From: a virus
Direction: 5' to 3' (one strand)
Length of the DNA stretch: 22,554 nucleotides
Virus record (IMG/VR): IMGVR_UViG_3300021090_000110
Span: 1 to 22,554 of that record
Below are positions 7,050-20,835 of this stretch, in pieces (within the stretch, counting starts at the first letter, position 1; each line of letters begins with the position of its first letter). Position numbers and translations under genes: made by a program. The notes under the pieces were generated by a model. The model did no database searches and was not told the DNA's origin. It saw nothing but the letters and a program-made list of their open reading frames with translations.

Positions 7050-7098
7050 ACAGAGTAATTCGGTAGAATTTTTCTACTACATCCTGTCCCGAAGTTTT

Positions 7099-7136
7099 GC
7101 GAAAGGCCATGAGCATAAGCACTCATGGCCTTTCGC
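7099..7136 (+). promoter_or_regulatory. Strong stem-loop in the portal leader
   Basis: GCGAAAGGCCATGAG (7099-7113) pairs perfectly over 15 bp with 7122-7136 around an 8-base loop. A smaller perfect hairpin, GTAGAA-TTT-TTCTAC, lies at about 7064-7078. No T-run follows, so it is not a classic terminator. It sits between the promoter at 7020-7049 and the portal start at 7163 and may control leader RNA processing or elongation. Confidence 0.6.
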
Positions 7137-7162
7137 GTTCACTACGTTCACAAGGAATTACC

Positions 7163-8617
7163 ATGACCACAAAATCACGCATACCCCTGCCGCCTGTGCC
7201 AACCACACGGATGACCAAGAATCAAATCATCCAAACCTATCAAAACGTAATGGCCGTCTTCGAGCGTACTGCGCTGGCCGGCAGCCTCGGCCAAACATTC
7301 GGAGGGGATCGTGACATGTACCAAATACTAGGGTGGAAAAAGCGGCTTGAATTTCAGGACTATCTTGATCTGTATGATCGCAACGGCATGGCCGCGAGAG
7401 TCGTGGATGCGCTGGCCGACGAAAGCTGGCGGCTTGCGCCTGAAATGACGGATGGTGATATTCAGAGTGGTGATGAGGACGAGGACAAGCTGACTGAATT
7501 CCTGACATCATGGAATGAAATGGCGGAGCGGCTTGATCTGTGGAGTATCTTCAATGATCTGGATACCGCGCTGGGCATCAGCCGCTATGCCGTGATCCTG
7601 CTGGGCGCGCCCGGCAAACTTGACTCACCCCTCGCCCGTGCAGTGACTATCAACTATCTGCAAGTGTATGATGAGGGACAGGCAAAAATTTCCACAACAG
7701 ATCGGGATATAAACTCACGACGCTATGGAATGCCCACCATGTACAACATTACCTTTGAGGATGGCGGGCAAAGCCGGCCAGTGCATTTCACACGGGTCAT
7801 CCACTGCAAGGAAGGGCGCGGACGATCCAGAGTCTATGGCATTCCACGACTGAAGAAGTCCTATAACTATCTCTCCGATCTGGAGAAAGTGGTCGGCTCA
7901 TCGAGCGAGGCGTTCTGGTTGTTGATCCGCAAGGGTCTTATCATCTCCGCGAAAGAGGGGATGCAGTTGCCCACCAAGGGATCACCCGACTATGAGGATA
8001 TGCAGGCCGAGATCAGTGAATGGGAACATCAATTACGGCGCGTCATGCGCGTGAAAGGCATGGATGTGACAGACCTGGGAGCGCAGGTGGTGGATGGCAA
8101 GGCGCAACACGACCTGCTCATCACGGATATAGCCGGCACCAACGGAATGCCACAAAGAGTCCTGGTCGGGTCCGAGCGCGGCGAACTTGCATCTACACAG
8201 GATGACTCAAATTGGGCCGGCGTGGTCGCAGCCCGCCAGCATCAGGAATGTGAAAAGTGGGTCAAGGACTATGCACGCACCCTGATTGCATTAGGCACAT
8301 TACCCAAGCCCAACGGTAAAATGGGGGTAAAATGGCAGGAGCTGTTCAAGTTGACAGCGATGGATCGCGCTATTATTGCAGATAAGGTTGCGGCCACAAT
8401 TGTACACATCACCAATGGGGCACCAGAAACAGCAGTGGACATTGCCGAATTCATGAAGGAGCATTTCAATTACATCCTTCCAAAGAACGCGACCACGCCC
8501 AAAGCAACCGCACCTGTTGTCATCAAAAAAATTCCCAACTCGACGCCTCCCGGTAGTAATGGCGGCGGGTTGAAGGGCAAACAAACCTCACAATTGATTG
8601 AGGACGCCATAGGATAA
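7163..8617 (+). CDS. Portal protein, DUF1073 family
   Basis: A 484-residue protein forming the dodecameric DNA gate at the capsid vertex. The match is to the DUF1073 portal group. Evidence includes an early Tyr/Arg-rich segment (LDLYDRNGMAARVVDALAD), a central VHFTRVIHC strand, then SYNYLSDLEKVVGSSSEAFW and later NGMPQRVLVGSERGELAST, the loop typical of these portals. AAGGAATTACC sets the start at 7163. An upstream ATG (7097) falls inside the leader stem-loop and is rejected. Some DUF1073 proteins are fused to an Acb1-like phosphoesterase. Here the C-terminus is a short Pro/Gly-rich tail and has no such domain. Confidence 0.85.
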   Translation: MTTKSRIPLPPVPTTRMTKNQIIQTYQNVMAVFERTALAGSLGQTFGGDRDMYQILGWKKRLEFQDYLDLYDRNGMAARVVDALADESWRLAPEMTDGDIQSGDEDEDKLTEFLTSWNEMAERLDLWSIFNDLDTALGISRYAVILLGAPGKLDSPLARAVTINYLQVYDEGQAKISTTDRDINSRRYGMPTMYNITFEDGGQSRPVHFTRVIHCKEGRGRSRVYGIPRLKKSYNYLSDLEKVVGSSSEAFWLLIRKGLIISAKEGMQLPTKGSPDYEDMQAEISEWEHQLRRVMRVKGMDVTDLGAQVVDGKAQHDLLITDIAGTNGMPQRVLVGSERGELASTQDDSNWAGVVAARQHQECEKWVKDYARTLIALGTLPKPNGKMGVKWQELFKLTAMDRAIIADKVAATIVHITNGAPETAVDIAEFMKEHFNYILPKNATTPKATAPVVIKKIPNSTPPGSNGGGLKGKQTSQLIEDAIG

Positions 8618-11898: not shown

Positions 11899-12176
11899 GA
11901 TTACCAATTAAAGCACTCAAGGAACTTTCTAAAACATACGGATATTCCCATGTGGTGATTTATGTGTATGACCAGGCCGGCAACATGTCACACGTCGCAA
12001 CCTATGGCCGCACCCTCCGAGAGTGCGATCAAGCCGCACAATTAGGAGACATGCTAAAAGATGCGCTCAAGTGGCCTGAAACACTACATGCCGTTCCTAA
12101 TAGAGTTAAGAAGTTGCAGGACAGGATCAAGGAATTGGAACAGGAACTCAGATCATATGAGATCACAGATGGGTAA
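11895..12176 (+). CDS. Small conserved phage protein (LPIKA-type)
   Basis: A 93-residue protein starting MRLPIKALKELSKTYGYSHV. It resembles a widespread phage family that opens with LPIKAAKEIAxKYGYxQVIIIA, continues with a G-x-HV-x-TYG turn and then ARxGDxLK. Here these are YSHVVIYVYD, SHVATYGRTL and AAQLGDMLKD. The C-terminus adds a basic/acidic coiled coil (RVKKLQDRIKELEQELRS). The function of the family is unknown to me. Start ATG 11895 overlaps the upstream stop as ATGA. Confidence 0.65.
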   Translation: MRLPIKALKELSKTYGYSHVVIYVYDQAGNMSHVATYGRTLRECDQAAQLGDMLKDALKWPETLHAVPNRVKKLQDRIKELEQELRSYEITDG

Positions 12177-12180
12177 CAGC

Positions 12181-13086
12181 ATGAGAAAATTCCTCTGCAC
12201 GCGAAACAGGGACAGCGCAGATGCTTATGTCACCGCATTATTGAATGCCGGCTTTATGGAAACCAAGAATCCGACAGAAGCAGACTTCTGGTTGTACGAC
12301 TACGAGCGTGACCATTATAATAAGACCCTGAATCTATTCAAAGACAAGCCCAAATTTATCTATCCTCACGTGCCCTATGGATGGTGGGTATGGGATGGCA
12401 TCTGCGCCGTGGATGACGTGTCCTGCAACTTCGTGGTCAGCGAGGGAGCCAAACAGGGGATGCGGTTGTATGGGTATCCTCATCCCATTGAAGTGTGCGG
12501 ATTTCCAAGATGTGAGCTGAGGCCATTCCAGCCGACACAAGGCATGAAACTTTTATTTGCACCCTCGCATACCCTCGGCAAAAGTGGCAAGTATCCCACT
12601 CCTGAATGTGTTGACTATCACCGGGCGGCAATGCGTCACATCATCGCCCTGAAAGATCACTTCGAGAGTGTCACTGTCCGCTATGCCTATGACCTGACGA
12701 CCAGCGGCTTCACGGAATTCGCACATGAATCAGGCATCACCTTTACGCGGGCGGAAGCCTTGAGTGTTTCCGATTCATTGAAAGCCATTGAGCAGGCCGA
12801 CATCATCATATCCTGCGGAACGTTCGGCTATCTTTCGCTTGCCATTGGAAAGCCCACGATCCTGTATGGAAACAGGACTCCCGCCTCCCGCGCCGGCAAG
12901 GTGAAGCATTATGCAAGCTATAAGCACCTGATCGACTTCCCCAAGCCCTTCGAGTCCCTGACCTTCGATGATGTGGCGAATGTCGGCCTGCAACCGGATC
13001 CCGAGGTGGAGCAGTGGAAAAGCCTTATGCTGGGCCAGCCTTTCAATGCAGAGAAGTTTATTTCAGTGGTAAGGGAGTTTGTATGA
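12181..13086 (+). CDS. GT-B-like glycosyltransferase, paralogue 1
   Basis: A 301-residue protein. The C-terminal half reads LKAIEQADIIISCGTFGYLS then LAIGKPTILYGNRTPASRAG (about 200-239). This is the layout of GT-B enzymes, where an Asp-Ile-Ile strand, a Ser/Thr turn and a G-K-P-T/V-I strand form the nucleotide-sugar site. The N-terminal half has a YPHVPYGWWVWDG loop, a SEGAKQGMRLYGYP segment and LLFAPSH at about 124-130. It shares these with the protein at 13365 (YPHAARPFVGWDG, AEGHIDVIRAYGY, ILFAPIH), so the two are tandem paralogues. An alternative start at 12169 adds four residues. Sugar and acceptor unknown. The stop forms ATGA with the next gene. Confidence 0.6.
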   Translation: MRKFLCTRNRDSADAYVTALLNAGFMETKNPTEADFWLYDYERDHYNKTLNLFKDKPKFIYPHVPYGWWVWDGICAVDDVSCNFVVSEGAKQGMRLYGYPHPIEVCGFPRCELRPFQPTQGMKLLFAPSHTLGKSGKYPTPECVDYHRAAMRHIIALKDHFESVTVRYAYDLTTSGFTEFAHESGITFTRAEALSVSDSLKAIEQADIIISCGTFGYLSLAIGKPTILYGNRTPASRAGKVKHYASYKHLIDFPKPFESLTFDDVANVGLQPDPEVEQWKSLMLGQPFNAEKFISVVREFV

Positions 13087-13364: not shown

Positions 13365-14426
13365 ATGCCGGCTTGTCCTTTTTGTCCTAGCCGTTATGCG
13401 AGTCTTGTGCGGAAGATGACCAATGTGGATTGCTATCGCTGTGTAAAATGTGGTAGGGAATTCATGGTATCAAAACCATCAAAGACGATCATCAGGACAA
13501 TGGGTGCACCGGGCAAGGGCTATTACATCTACCGACATCAGGGAAAAGAAATCCCGTTTGAAGAAGCCCTGTGCAACGCCGGCTACTGGAACACGGGAGA
13601 TATTAGCAAGGCCAGAATTGTACTCATGGATGTGGACACCGCCGGCAGAGTCGCACACTTTCAAAAAGACAAGACAAAGCTGTTTGTTTATCCCCATGCC
13701 GCAAGACCTTTTGTGGGTTGGGATGGACTCTTCACATCATCACAACACACGTCCGCAGCTTTCGTGTTCGCCGAGGGACATATTGATGTGATCCGCGCAT
13801 ATGGGTACAAGAAGCCATTACATCCTGTCGGGTGGGCATACAGTGAGATCAAGCCATTTGTGCCGGCCAGTGACCCAAAGAAAATATTGTTTGCACCCAT
13901 CCATCCAAACCGCAACGGCTGGCTGTCGGCAATGGATAAGAATATCAACAAGCGCACATACAAAATTCTGCTGGACATGATCGATACGCACGACATGAGT
14001 CTGACAGTCAGACTCATCAGAGGTCTGGATGCAAACGGGCTATGGAAGGATAACCGAGTCTGTTATGTGGAAGGTCAGACCAACACGAAGCAGATGGATG
14101 ATCTTGCACGCGCCGACATTGGGGTGAGCCATCAAACATACGCATGGATTGGTGTGGCATTGGGCCGGCCAATGGTGATGATGGGGGAAGGGGAAGCGCC
14201 TCGTAATGGTGGTAGTGAGGCGGATTTCAAACAGGTGAAGTCCTGGGACTTGTATCGTCACCTATTAGCCTTTCCGCTGGACATATTGAACACGGAAGAC
14301 CCTTACGGTCTTCTCGTGCAGGCATGTGAGAGTGATGAGTGTATCCGTGATTGGAAATCCCGCATGATCGGCAGCGAGACCTTTGATCCAAAAAAATTTA
14401 TCAGCGCAATGGAGATGTATCTATGA
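13365..14426 (+). CDS. Zinc-ribbon plus GT-B-like protein, paralogue 2
   Basis: A 353-residue protein. Residues 1-35 form a four-Cys zinc ribbon (CPFC at 4-7, CYRCVKC at 23-29). From about residue 53 the chain matches the 12181 protein. YYIYRHQGKEIPFEEAL leads into the acidic VLMDVD strand, then YPHAARPFVGWDG, AEGHIDVIRAYGY, KKILFAPIHP and DLARADIGVSHQTYAWIGVA before LGRPMVMMGEGEAP. Both proteins end in a WKSxMxG..F..KKFIS block. This fusion is absent from paralogue 1. GGAAAGTTGATCC precedes the ATG. Likely a sugar transferase with an added nucleic-acid- or protein-binding head. Acceptor unknown. Confidence 0.6.
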   Translation: MPACPFCPSRYASLVRKMTNVDCYRCVKCGREFMVSKPSKTIIRTMGAPGKGYYIYRHQGKEIPFEEALCNAGYWNTGDISKARIVLMDVDTAGRVAHFQKDKTKLFVYPHAARPFVGWDGLFTSSQHTSAAFVFAEGHIDVIRAYGYKKPLHPVGWAYSEIKPFVPASDPKKILFAPIHPNRNGWLSAMDKNINKRTYKILLDMIDTHDMSLTVRLIRGLDANGLWKDNRVCYVEGQTNTKQMDDLARADIGVSHQTYAWIGVALGRPMVMMGEGEAPRNGGSEADFKQVKSWDLYRHLLAFPLDILNTEDPYGLLVQACESDECIRDWKSRMIGSETFDPKKFISAMEMYL

Positions 14427-17205: not shown

Positions 17206-17245
17206 CGCCTAAGAGTGTATCGCTCTTTTCGGGCGTTTTGCTTTT
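17206..17245 (+). terminator. Stem-loop terminator 1
   Basis: AAGAG/CTCTT core with outer CGCC/GGGCG pairs, then TTTTGCTTTTT. A longer pairing, GCCCGAA (17190-17196) with TTCGGGC (17228-17234), is also possible. It lies in the leader of the protease gene. Confidence 0.55.
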
Positions 17246-17273
17246 TGCATAATCATCGAGAAGACCGATACAT

Positions 17274-17313
17274 GCCCCAAAGAGTGTCAACACTCTTTGG
17301 GGCTTTTTATTTT
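17274..17313 (+). terminator. Strong terminator 2 just before the protease gene
   Basis: A perfect 14-bp stem (GCCCCAAAGAGTGT, 17274-17287, with 17290-17303, two-base gap) followed by TTTTTATTTT. This is a textbook intrinsic terminator, placed only 17 bases before the TTG start of the next gene. It shares AAGAGTGT with terminator 1. Transcripts from upstream should end here unless modified. Confidence 0.85.
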
Positions 17314-17330
17314 CAGACAAGGATACCACC

Positions 17331-19322
17331 TTGAACATCCTGCTTTATGCAAATCAAAACCAGTTGGACTACGAGACACTGCGCGAGATTGACCATGATG
17401 GGCGCACGTGGCTGGTAATCAATGGTGTGCCAATTGTGGAAGGTGTGCTCGGCCAATTCCTCGTGCCCTATGAGGAATTCGGTGCGTTCCCTGCCGATTG
17501 GAATGATGTGCCCCTGGTACTCAATCATCCTGTGGAAAATAATGGGTCGGCAAGAGTCTCATCTCCAGACGTGCCCGTTATAGGACGCTTTCATAATGCC
17601 GGCCTCGATCCGCAGGGACGCCGGCTGACTGGTGAGTACTGGCTGGACAAGATCAATTTTCTTGCAACCGATGATGGGCCGGCCATGTACGAAAAGATGC
17701 GCCTCGGCCAGCCCATCGAAGTGTCAACAGGATACTTCGCGCCCGGCACTCAGTTCGTCAATGGCATATTCAAAGGCAAGCAATACACGGGAATACACAA
17801 AGGGATTCATCCCGATCACATAGCGATCCTACCATCAAACATTGGCAATTGTTCAGTAATGGATGGTTGTGGACTCAATCGCAACTCTGCGGATGGTATC
17901 TTTGCCAATTGTGGTGATAGTGCCAACTGCAACAAAGCCGACTGTCCCATGCGCGACAAGAATATGGGCATTGCTCCCATGCACAAGATGGAAGCCAACA
18001 TGACCGGGAGTCTGCCGGCCGGGGGCAAAAAGATTTATGAGCAGGTCTATAAAGAACTAATCAAAAAAGGGAAGTCCAAAGAATCTGCTTCAAAACAAGC
18101 CTGGGGCGCAGTCAAGGCCGCCGGCTGGCATATGGGCGAGGGTGGCAAGTGGATGATGCAGAACGAAGCATCTCCAGAAGACCACACCAACTCCGCCATG
18201 ATCTCGCTGATGATCCCCGATCAACTCAAAGCTGACCTGCAAAAAGCATACCCATTCATGGATGATGTGACACGTGACAACCTGCACATCACCATTTGTT
18301 ATTTGGGGGATGTGCGCACACTGGACAAGGAAGCAGCGGTCAAAGCCCTGCTCTATGCCGCATCGAACGTGCCTCCGATCAAAGCCAAACTGCAAGGGCT
18401 GGCACGCTTCGTCAATGGCGATGAGAAGGACCCGATTGTATTGACTTTCGACAGTCCACAACTCATGACGCTTTATCGCAAGATCAAGATGTCCCTGAAC
18501 GATCAAAAAATACCATATCACGATGAGCACGGCTTCATCCCGCACATGACTATCGGTTATGTGGGCAAGGATGAGAAGATGCCCATCGATACCATCGAAC
18601 CTCTGGAGATCAATTTCTCTGAGATGACACTGACAGCCGGCGCGACCATGATCCCTGCCACATTGAGTGGTTACACAGGTGGGGACAGCTATATAAATTC
18701 CAAGCAATCCGCGAACCAGCTACGAGGCTGGCTTGCTAATGCAACACATTTCACCAAGGAGTTTCTTATGAAAAATGCACAGTTAGCCGCATTCCTGAAA
18801 TCCATTGGCTTCAAGAACGTGAAGATCGAAGACAATGGAACTGATGGGCTTTCAGTGGAACTCGAAGGTCAAGGCAGTGAAACCGCTCTCGACGGGCTTG
18901 TACAACTCAATTCCGTTGTGCAGTCTGTGGGCGGCGCAACTGAATTCACCAAGACCTTCGAGGCATTGAAAGGCTTGCCGGAAATCCTGGCAAACATGCA
19001 AACGCAGATGAACGAAAAACTGGCAATCGTCCAGAACGTCGCGTCATTTGCGGAGTCCGTAGCCGAGAAAGAAAAGGCTACAAAGACGGCCCTGATCGCC
19101 GGGCTTGTCGCCAACAAAGCAAATCCGTTTGACGAAGCAGTGCTCAACACCATGTCGGTCACTGTCCTCGAAAAACTGAATGCGTCCTATCAGCCGGTTG
19201 ATTACTCTGGCCTGGGTGCCGGCGTGTTTAGCAATGTCGAGAGCAAGCCCTTAGCCGTGCCTCAAGGCTATCTCTCCCTGTTCCAGAATGCAGAAGGGAA
19301 CCAGACAAAGGATAAGGTGTAA
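17331..19322 (+). CDS. Prohead protease (DUF2213)-ChaB-2H phosphoesterase-scaffold fusion
   Basis: A 663-residue protein starting at TTG 17331 behind AAGGATACCACC. Residues about 25-180 match DUF2213 prohead-protease-like proteins: GVPIVEGVLG, LVLNHP (H66, a likely catalytic His), GRRLTGEYWLD, EVSTGY (S132, a likely nucleophile) and GNCSVMDGCG. Residues about 229-275 (KKIYEQVYKELIKKGKSKES then AWGAVKAAGW and GKWMM) resemble ChaB. Residues about 288-450 form a 2H phosphoesterase with HIT at 319-321 and HMT at 405-407, both followed by hydrophobic strands (CYLGD, GYVG). From about 478 the chain is scaffold-like. The 2H family hydrolyses cyclic or 2'-5' phosphodiesters and includes the anti-CBASS enzyme Acb1. 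No residue of either HxT motif is lost. Confidence 0.8.
   Translation: MNILLYANQNQLDYETLREIDHDGRTWLVINGVPIVEGVLGQFLVPYEEFGAFPADWNDVPLVLNHPVENNGSARVSSPDVPVIGRFHNAGLDPQGRRLTGEYWLDKINFLATDDGPAMYEKMRLGQPIEVSTGYFAPGTQFVNGIFKGKQYTGIHKGIHPDHIAILPSNIGNCSVMDGCGLNRNSADGIFANCGDSANCNKADCPMRDKNMGIAPMHKMEANMTGSLPAGGKKIYEQVYKELIKKGKSKESASKQAWGAVKAAGWHMGEGGKWMMQNEASPEDHTNSAMISLMIPDQLKADLQKAYPFMDDVTRDNLHITICYLGDVRTLDKEAAVKALLYAASNVPPIKAKLQGLARFVNGDEKDPIVLTFDSPQLMTLYRKIKMSLNDQKIPYHDEHGFIPHMTIGYVGKDEKMPIDTIEPLEINFSEMTLTAGATMIPATLSGYTGGDSYINSKQSANQLRGWLANATHFTKEFLMKNAQLAAFLKSIGFKNVKIEDNGTDGLSVELEGQGSETALDGLVQLNSVVQSVGGATEFTKTFEALKGLPEILANMQTQMNEKLAIVQNVASFAESVAEKEKATKTALIAGLVANKANPFDEAVLNTMSVTVLEKLNASYQPVDYSGLGAGVFSNVESKPLAVPQGYLSLFQNAEGNQTKDKV
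18768..19322 (+). CDS. Nested scaffold protein, internal start
   Basis: In the same frame as the fusion protein, AAGGAG (18756-18761) lies six bases before ATG 18768 (residue 480), giving a 184-residue product starting MKNAQLAAFLKSIGFKNVKI. It holds the helical, Ala/Glu/Lys-rich segment (LPEILANMQTQMNEKL, VASFAESVAEKEKATKT) expected of an internal scaffold. A protease gene with an internal in-frame scaffold start is the known lambda C/Nu3 arrangement. The start here sits just after the 2H domain, so the nested product would lack protease and phosphoesterase. Confidence 0.6.
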   Translation: MKNAQLAAFLKSIGFKNVKIEDNGTDGLSVELEGQGSETALDGLVQLNSVVQSVGGATEFTKTFEALKGLPEILANMQTQMNEKLAIVQNVASFAESVAEKEKATKTALIAGLVANKANPFDEAVLNTMSVTVLEKLNASYQPVDYSGLGAGVFSNVESKPLAVPQGYLSLFQNAEGNQTKDKV

Positions 19323-19324
19323 CA

Positions 19325-19789
19325 ATGGCATACAAAACCGCACCCTCGACAATTATCCTGAGTGGTGATCCGCAATATATGGAATTGCCGCTCGAACCGC
19401 TGGATGCCTATGGCGTCGGCGGGATTACCCCCGGCTTTCTGGTTGAACGCAATGCAAGCAACAAATATCAACCGCATAGTAGCGCCGCCGGAATAGCCTC
19501 TCCAATCTTCGCAGTCGAGAACATGCTTCTCGGTAAGGGGATCGATGATGCCTACATTGTGGACAATGAGGCCGTGCTTGCTCAATTCTGCAAGCCGGGC
19601 GACCACGTGTATGCCCTACTCGAAGCCGGCGGCGGCAACGTAACTGCAGTCGGCACACTCTTGAACTCAAACGGCGCGGGACTCTTGCAGGTTGGGGCCA
19701 CCCTGCCCGTTGCACGCGCCCTTGAAGTAGTCGATAACGACCCTGGCACGGATGGGGCTGCCATGCGCGTTCGCGTGGAGGTGATCTAA
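19325..19789 (+). CDS. Putative head decoration / capsid-stabilising protein
   Basis: A 154-residue protein between the protease/scaffold and the major capsid gene, the usual place for decoration or capsid-stabilising proteins (lambda gpD-like or DUF2190-like). It is Gly/Ala/Val-rich and strand-rich: ITPGFLVERNASN, IFAVENMLLGKGIDD, KPGDHVYALLEAGGGNV and NGAGLLQVGATLP. The start is two bases after the previous stop. The end overlaps the capsid start (TAATG), whose GGAGGTGAT ribosome site lies in this gene's last codons. Confidence 0.6.
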   Translation: MAYKTAPSTIILSGDPQYMELPLEPLDAYGVGGITPGFLVERNASNKYQPHSSAAGIASPIFAVENMLLGKGIDDAYIVDNEAVLAQFCKPGDHVYALLEAGGGNVTAVGTLLNSNGAGLLQVGATLPVARALEVVDNDPGTDGAAMRVRVEVI

Positions 19790-20835
19790 TGGACATGGCT
19801 CAAATTCTCAATAGTAATTTTGGGTATATGCCAATGCCCTCCCTTGTCGGCTCGATGCGCCCGTACATCAACGGACGCGGCGAGTTTGTGGTGAATATTG
19901 GCACACCCAGCAACCCACGTGAACGGGTGGTCGCCAATGCCCTGCTTCGCACAGATGAATGGGAGCAGATCGACTCTGCCGTGATGGATGTTGTTCGTCT
20001 GCCAAATATCGCCCTGAATGATTTCCTACGTCTTGGGTTGACCCAGCCGCTCGATGGAATGGGCGTGACGGTATCCATCTACGATCAATTGGGTGACATG
20101 ACCGGAGCCGACCTGAGCATGAACGGCGAGGTTCGCGGTGAGAAGGATCGGATTCCTCTCACTCCGCAATCCGTCCCTGTGCCCTTGATCTACAAGGATT
20201 TTCAAATCCCACTACGCTCCCTCGAATCATCCCGCCGGGGTGTGCGTGCCGCAGCGATACCGCTGGACACCACCTATGCCACTGTTGCCACCCGCAAGGT
20301 CCAGGACAAGGTGGATGATGTGATCTTCAATGGCGATGTGAAAGTGTTGGGAGGCACAGGCCCTATTTATGGCCTGACCAACAAGCCCCAGCGCATCCAG
20401 AAGACCTCCGCTCAGTGCGGGGGCGGCGATTTTGGCACTTCCGGAAATGCCTATAAGACCATCAACGGCGCGATCAATCTGCTCCATGCCGCCGGCTTCA
20501 ACGGCCCGTTCGGATGTTATCTGTCCACCACGCAGTACGGACAGATCAACCAACTGATTTCCAACACCGCTGTTTCCGAGTTAGCCGCGATTGTCGCGCA
20601 GATTCCAGACCTTGCCTTCCTCAAGCTCTCCACAAAACTTACCGATGGTGAAATGATCCTCTGGCAATTGACCAAGGATGTTGCGGACATCGCCATTGCA
20701 CAGGATGTCTCAACGGTCAATTGGGAATCGCTCGGCGGTTTCTTAATCGACTTCCGCATCTTCACGTGCCTGACTGTACGTGTCAAGCACGATTACAACG
20801 GTGCCTGTGGCGTGATCCACATCACAGGATGCTAA
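19789..20835 (+). CDS. Major capsid protein (HK97-fold)
   Basis: A 348-residue protein directly after the decoration-like gene, behind a near-perfect GGAGGTGAT ribosome site, the best in the window. It has the expected HK97-type order: an N-terminal region, then the E-loop/spine area around IPLTPQSVPVPLIYKDFQIP, and the spine helix with LDTTYATVATRKVQDKVDDV and IFNG. A P-domain/A-domain follows (TINGAINLLHAAGFNGPFGC, then LSTTQYGQI), with a C-terminal strand region ending in FRIFTCLTVRVKHDYNGACG. Sequence and length fit linocin/encapsulin-type and phage capsid proteins of this size. Gene order supports the call. Confidence 0.8.
   Translation: MDMAQILNSNFGYMPMPSLVGSMRPYINGRGEFVVNIGTPSNPRERVVANALLRTDEWEQIDSAVMDVVRLPNIALNDFLRLGLTQPLDGMGVTVSIYDQLGDMTGADLSMNGEVRGEKDRIPLTPQSVPVPLIYKDFQIPLRSLESSRRGVRAAAIPLDTTYATVATRKVQDKVDDVIFNGDVKVLGGTGPIYGLTNKPQRIQKTSAQCGGGDFGTSGNAYKTINGAINLLHAAGFNGPFGCYLSTTQYGQINQLISNTAVSELAAIVAQIPDLAFLKLSTKLTDGEMILWQLTKDVADIAIAQDVSTVNWESLGGFLIDFRIFTCLTVRVKHDYNGACGVIHITGC

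Follow-up and report, generated by a model that had tools for sequence, protein, structure and literature searches.

In the viral DNA analysed here (IMG/VR record IMGVR_UViG_3300021090_000110, 22,554 nucleotides, referred to below as the window) a 2H phosphoesterase domain lies inside the protein predicted to act as prohead protease and scaffold. The case had been presented in an earlier note on this DNA as exceptional; however, fusions of 2H domains with head proteases recur in several phage groups, and comparison of the sequences suggests that 2H is a mobile cargo domain of the head module. The architecture of the protein, the predicted folds of both protease and 2H enzyme, the conservation of the catalytic residues, the recurrence of fusions to inside-facing head proteins and the alternate placement of the enzyme on portal or protease are directly supported by the data given below. 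The best explanation, which is regarded as somewhat probable, is that a 2H enzyme carried on an inside-facing head protein is packaged as cargo, released by the protease and brought into the next host.

Fusion gene and head module

The fusion gene (17331-19322, plus strand) is a single uninterrupted ORF of 663 aa with the start codon TTG, preceded about 8 bases upstream by an AAGGA-like ribosome site. Domain matches and a structural model bear out the order given in the earlier note, in which prohead protease, ChaB-like, 2H phosphoesterase and scaffold parts follow one another in one continuous chain. According to Pfam and PHROG, the surrounding head module consists of terminase, portal, protease fusion, decoration and capsid genes in this order. 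The portal (Phage_portal_3/DUF1073; 7097-8617, alternative start 7163, plus strand) carries no 2H domain by Pfam and by comparison with relatives, as had been claimed before. The fusion gene is followed on the same strand by a head decoration protein (19325-19789, phrog_766) and a major capsid protein of the DUF6260/encapsulin-like type (19789-20835, phrog_771 and Pfam). The nearest terminases are those of Salinibacter phages (42%). The fusion thus has the features of a polyvalent effector, with several distinct domains in one chain among the head genes of a terminase-portal phage. An assembly artefact or a chance fusion was ruled out by an independent contig (L110) with identical architecture, and a chance fusion is also countered by DUF2213 fusions in other orders (L045, L058, L096, L175).

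Other features of the region were noticed by eye. Two terminator-like inverted repeats with T runs are located immediately upstream of the fusion gene (17212-17318). Between portal and protease there are two adjacent genes (12061-13086 and 13365-14426); their translated products appear to be diverged paralogues similar to glycosyl/glycerophosphate transferases, and Pfam gave no match for 12061-13086.

Protease, ChaB-like domain, linkers and scaffold

The model of the full-length fusion (pLDDT 77) comprises four ordered modules joined by low-confidence linkers at residues 172-215, about 278-283 and 448-460, and the low confidence on both sides of the 2H domain suggests that it is flanked by flexible linkers. 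Residues 16-171 (approximately; 17376-17843, plus strand) are predicted to form a prohead protease of the gp21/assemblin type, as this part of the full model matches T4 gp21 (5jbl_B) with Z 10.7 and rmsd 3.5 over 137 residues, and herpesvirus assemblin proteases with Z 6-7. Proteases of the gp21/assemblin type have a Ser/His active site. Residues H66, S132, D162 and H163 are invariant across 38 aligned relatives, which is what an active protease would be expected to show. PHROG 760, a group of DUF2213-like head proteins, matches residues 16-202 (E 2.3e-10); Pfam DUF2213 (PF09979) was not reported in the window protein at E <= 0.01, but exceeds its cut-off in two relatives (L020 and L110), the protease domains of which are about 50% identical to that of the window.

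The protease domain is followed by a predicted disordered linker (residues 172-215, 17844-17975, plus strand) and by a ChaB-like helical domain (residues 217-276, 17979-18158, plus strand), which is seen in the model and scores 23 bits against ChaB (PF06150), below the cut-off of 27; the L020 protein reaches 27.7. Past the protease domain a conserved Asn is present, the first N standing at offset 3-4 after a DGCG motif in 64 of 77 relatives. Its counterpart in the window is N185 (residues 182-186), in the predicted disordered region, a candidate self-cleavage site of DUF2213 proteases. In the linkers beside 2H an N-[ASE] motif (N before A, S or E) occurs; for the protease proteins it is weakly enriched (P 0.01-0.1) and as a cleavage motif it is a lead only. 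In the proteases of L110, L185 and L186 the linker after the protease domain carries the recurring motif 'HPWHKGRxGxVGGS' / 'GSGNFGHSGRPGKVGGS', and in another DUF2213 protease protein (L021:5827-7932) a different insert occupies the cargo position, ParB/sulfiredoxin-like by eye ('LDGNHRVAMAGEF').

Downstream of 2H, a second predicted disordered linker (residues 448-460, 18672-18710, plus strand; pLDDT of the block about 41) leads to the scaffold region (residues 461-645, 18711-19265, plus strand), which is composed of a small alpha/beta part (461-512), long helices (517-594) and a conserved C-terminal leucine motif.

2H domain

The 2H phosphoesterase domain, delimited by Pfam, alignment and fold model, covers residues 286-447 (18186-18671, plus strand). 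Its two HxT motifs are found where the earlier note had placed them, at residues 319-321 (18285-18293) and 405-407 (18543-18551), and their H, T, H and T are invariant in 70 diverse aligned 2H domains. The claim that the enzyme is complete also stood up to structural comparison: a model of residues 276-462 built from 70 sequences (pLDDT 90.6, pTM 0.85) matched two-lobed 2H enzymes in the PDB. The presence of both HxT motifs and of the modelled two-lobe fold places the domain in the 2H superfamily.

Within this superfamily, sequence and predicted fold indicate that the window domain is LigT/ThpR-like, with Acb1 more distant, so that the link to Acb1 proposed at first is weakened. Pfam 2_5_RNA_ligase2 (PF13563) matches residues 303-417 with E 2.6e-10 and 41 bits against a cut-off of 27, and LigT_PEase (PF02834) with E 3.3e-7 and 30.8 bits against 23.3, whereas Acb1 (PF23474) falls short by 0.3 bits (26.7 against 27). 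The best named match is the NCBIfam 2',3'-cyclic phosphodiesterase (E 8.9e-11); the ThpR equivalog TIGR02258 scores 42 bits, under its cut-off of 65.7. The best solved match of the model is drCPDase (Z 17.1, rmsd 3.6, 164 residues), and E. coli LigT gives Z of about 15, while Acb1 gives 10.1 and 9.5, with 133 residues aligned as against about 155-164 for LigT-type enzymes.

Relatives and partners of the 2H domain

When the whole fusion protein was used as a single query against viral contigs, no relative was returned. With a protease alignment 80 IMG/VR loci were collected, in four of which (L045, L058, L059, L096) 2H lies in the same ORF as the protease; in L096 and L175 it is N-terminal to it. 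The closest counterpart, L110 (record G009), repeats the order of DUF2213 protease, ChaB-like domain, 2H and scaffold, and its 2H falls in the same supported clade, but it shows only 37-50% identity to the window and a longer inter-domain linker. The nearest protease relative devoid of 2H (L020, protease about 50% identical) retains ChaB and has no 2H on its 23-kb fragment, hence the domain appears to be dispensable.

The 2H domain alone was also used as a query. An alignment of 16 diverse 2H domains proved too divergent for searching, and closer sets succeeded. The search of viral contigs returned 80 loci; four of its five seeds were stand-alone 2H genes, therefore the seeds do not account for the bias to head fusions. 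Among 62 distinct viral 2H ORFs the partners recognised by Pfam were portal families (about 28), head proteases (8), major capsid proteins (7) and MuF (5), these counts being approximate as one ORF may match more than one family. The head proteases belong to the Mu-like_Pro, S78_2, DUF2213 and S78 families. In seven loci (L118, L120, L130, L132, L134, L138, L169) a single ORF of 900-1170 aa encodes 2H followed by the major capsid protein, where by sequence the cargo appears to be fused to the shell protein itself. Some of the 62 ORFs also contain ADP-ribosyltransferase, Nudix or HipA-like domains, and one large protein combining 2H with an ADP-ribosyltransferase, Nudix or HipA-like kinase was seen in L114:2619-6179 (which additionally carries a Mu-type portal), L177:3678-6359, L168:2472-5600 and L129:4680-6560.

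Viral 2H ORFs are long, with 69 of 80 reaching at least 400 aa, 11 below 400 and a median of 745, whereas in the control set of cellular-genome matches 73 of 80 ORFs are shorter than 400 aa, seven are at least that long and the median is 192. Five of the seven long cellular ORFs, the top-scoring ones, come from Streptomyces and may be prophages. The cellular matches do not exceed 36% identity, are for the most part small stand-alone genes and probably encode ordinary LigT/YjcG-type proteins, and for these reasons prophage relatives in cellular genomes were set aside.

Portal or protease as the carrier

Each record was searched with both the protease fusion and the portal of the window. In G002, G005, G006 and G008 2H is carried by the portal (728-752 aa) and the protease ORF has none, and the same holds for G007, where the protease lies at the contig end. 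In the window (G000), G009, G013, G014, G015 and G016 2H is on the protease and the portal (469-543 aa) is free of it. In G011 and G012 it is on neither, and among the records checked none carries it on both. These records were chosen because most of them carry a 2H, and the set includes several fragments; the alternation should accordingly be read as a pattern and not as a statistic. In the portal-2H relatives the protease ORF stops shortly past ChaB, and in G002 the match to the scaffold part (query 567-632) is an ORF of its own with 206 aa.

The 2H of the window belongs to a clade of 12 members with support 100/100, in which ten domains are portal-borne (nine on Phage_portal_3, one on another portal family, L102) and two are protease-borne (window and L110). 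In the protease tree the window, G009 and G011 are set apart from the phages with a portal-borne 2H; the support for this is moderate (85/87 and 82/91). The simplest reading of these sequences is that 2H moved between portal and protease genes inside this phage group, in either direction. That the protease fusions of the window and of L110 go back to one event was neither demonstrated nor ruled out (p-AU 0.385). In Gordonia phages, 2H is either a separate gene overlapping the end of the protease gene (L011, YungMoney genes 18-19) or forms one ORF with the protease (L013/L014), which by sequence looks like fusion or fission inside one lineage.

Comparison with known systems

The fusion of 2H to MuF and portal proteins, with packaging and a counter-signalling role proposed, was published between 2017 and 2022 (Iyer et al. 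2017, PMC5512222; 2022, PMC9503650). Like the polyvalent effectors described there, the window protein, from a terminase-portal phage, joins 2H to a head protein that faces inwards; packaging and injection were predicted for such fusions, possibly to counter nucleotide signalling. The carrier here is a prohead protease-scaffold, whereas in the relevant sections of those papers the carriers named for 2H are MuF and portal only; a capsid-processing serine peptidase is named there as a partner of Nudix (PMC9503650). The literature searched contained no discussion of a 2H-prohead protease fusion. What the present data add is the protease as a carrier, the fact that such fusions recur in several protease families, the fusions to capsid proteins and the alternation between portal and protease.

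Protease-2H fusions of actinophages are already deposited in GenBank under mixed names, unremarked. Arthrobacter Laroyevirus gp18 and Microbacterium ValentiniPuff gp7, called 'capsid maturation protease', 'RNA ligase' or 'aldolase' in databases, combine 2H and a head maturation protease in one chain as the window does, but their 2H is N-terminal and on a separate tree branch, the protease is Peptidase_S78_2 (XkdF) and not DUF2213, and no ChaB domain was found in them. The LigT/ThpR RNA 2',3'-cyclic phosphodiesterases (5ldm, 5h7e) share the full two-lobe fold and the HxT/HxT tetrad with the window domain at about 18% identity; the latter, in contrast, rides on a head protein. The Acb1 anti-CBASS nuclease (7t26, 7t27), with the tetrad H44, T46, H113 and T115 (PMC9117128), belongs to the same superfamily and has the same catalytic tetrad, but it is further away in fold and sequence, and its solved chains are compact (about 140 residues).

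Possible role of the 2H domain

Packaging in the head is inferred as the best explanation, and it fits because the carriers in relatives, namely portals, proteases and capsid proteins, all contact the prohead interior. The 2H domain is predicted to be a catalytically competent, LigT/ThpR-like metal-independent phosphodiesterase, which the scaffold/protease part would carry into the prohead during assembly. The protease would then probably cleave the flexible linkers on both sides of it, by analogy with T4 gp21 and the internal proteins, and a free enzyme of about 18 kDa would be left in the head and enter the next host with the DNA. There it would likely act on RNA 2',3'-cyclic ends, 2'-5' linkages or a nucleotide signal; of these, RNA ends or 2'-5' linkages, cleaved by LigT-like chemistry, agree best with the modelled fold, and counter-defence would be a possible outcome. 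In T4, the internal proteins reach the core through a short targeting sequence. Like Alt, they are packaged and gp21 trims them, and one of them, IPI, is injected along with the DNA (PMC9958956); giant phages contain many processed ejection proteins (PMC5694885). Against the packaging of 2H as cargo it may be said that a cleaved fragment could leave the prohead via pores or be degraded together with the scaffold.

Alternatively, 2H could work late in the cytoplasm of the producing cell, on nucleotide signals or cleaved tRNA, and be fused merely for high co-expression with head proteins. Late head genes are strongly expressed, and stand-alone 2H genes are found next to head genes in Gordonia and Brevibacterium phages, for example gene 19 of Gordonia phage YungMoney directly 3' of the protease gene; however, the recognised fusion partners are proteins in contact with the prohead interior, of several families and in both orders, and co-expression would not demand exactly these, which makes late action rather unlikely, though a serious possibility. 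A somewhat less likely role is RNA repair, in which 2H would open the 2',3'-cyclic phosphates that anti-phage RNases of the host leave behind and an RNA ligase would then reseal the tRNA. The nearest folds (LigT, ThpR, drCPDase) act on such ends and the top named match points the same way, but ligases (PF09511, PF01139, PF09414) were found in only four of 20 2H records, all of about 100 kb or larger and none a near relative, although the records are possibly incomplete and the host might supply the ligase. This rarity disfavours a phage-encoded repair pathway. That the domain is an Acb1-type enzyme degrading CBASS cyclic oligonucleotides is improbable: the superfamily, the tetrad, a near-threshold Pfam score and Z of about 10 speak for it, but both the Pfam scores and the fold comparison favour LigT-type enzymes. 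A purely structural, inactive remnant serving assembly, as its position inside a scaffold protein might suggest, is very hard to believe, since none of the four active-site residues varies among 70 diverse domains and the domain is exchanged among unrelated head proteins and absent from some relatives.

A bolder form of the packaging proposal, to be treated as speculative and itself rather doubtful, assumes that tailed phages have a 'cargo slot' in the head, open to any inward-facing head protein as carrier, with 2H, a phosphodiesterase of nucleotide signals or RNA, hopping between portal, protease-scaffold and capsid, one per genome, being cut free by the protease and injected as a counter-defence of the first minutes, before phage expression.

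Implications

The phage countermeasures to nucleotide signalling known so far, T4 Acb1 among them, are produced once infection is under way. Delivery from the head would let an enzyme act sooner than these. The either/or placement on portal or protease provides natural pairs with the same cargo on different carriers, and thereby the packaging-and-delivery idea of 2017 becomes directly testable. It is also a warning that actinophage genes named 'RNA ligase' or 'capsid maturation protease' can encode proteins with two functions.
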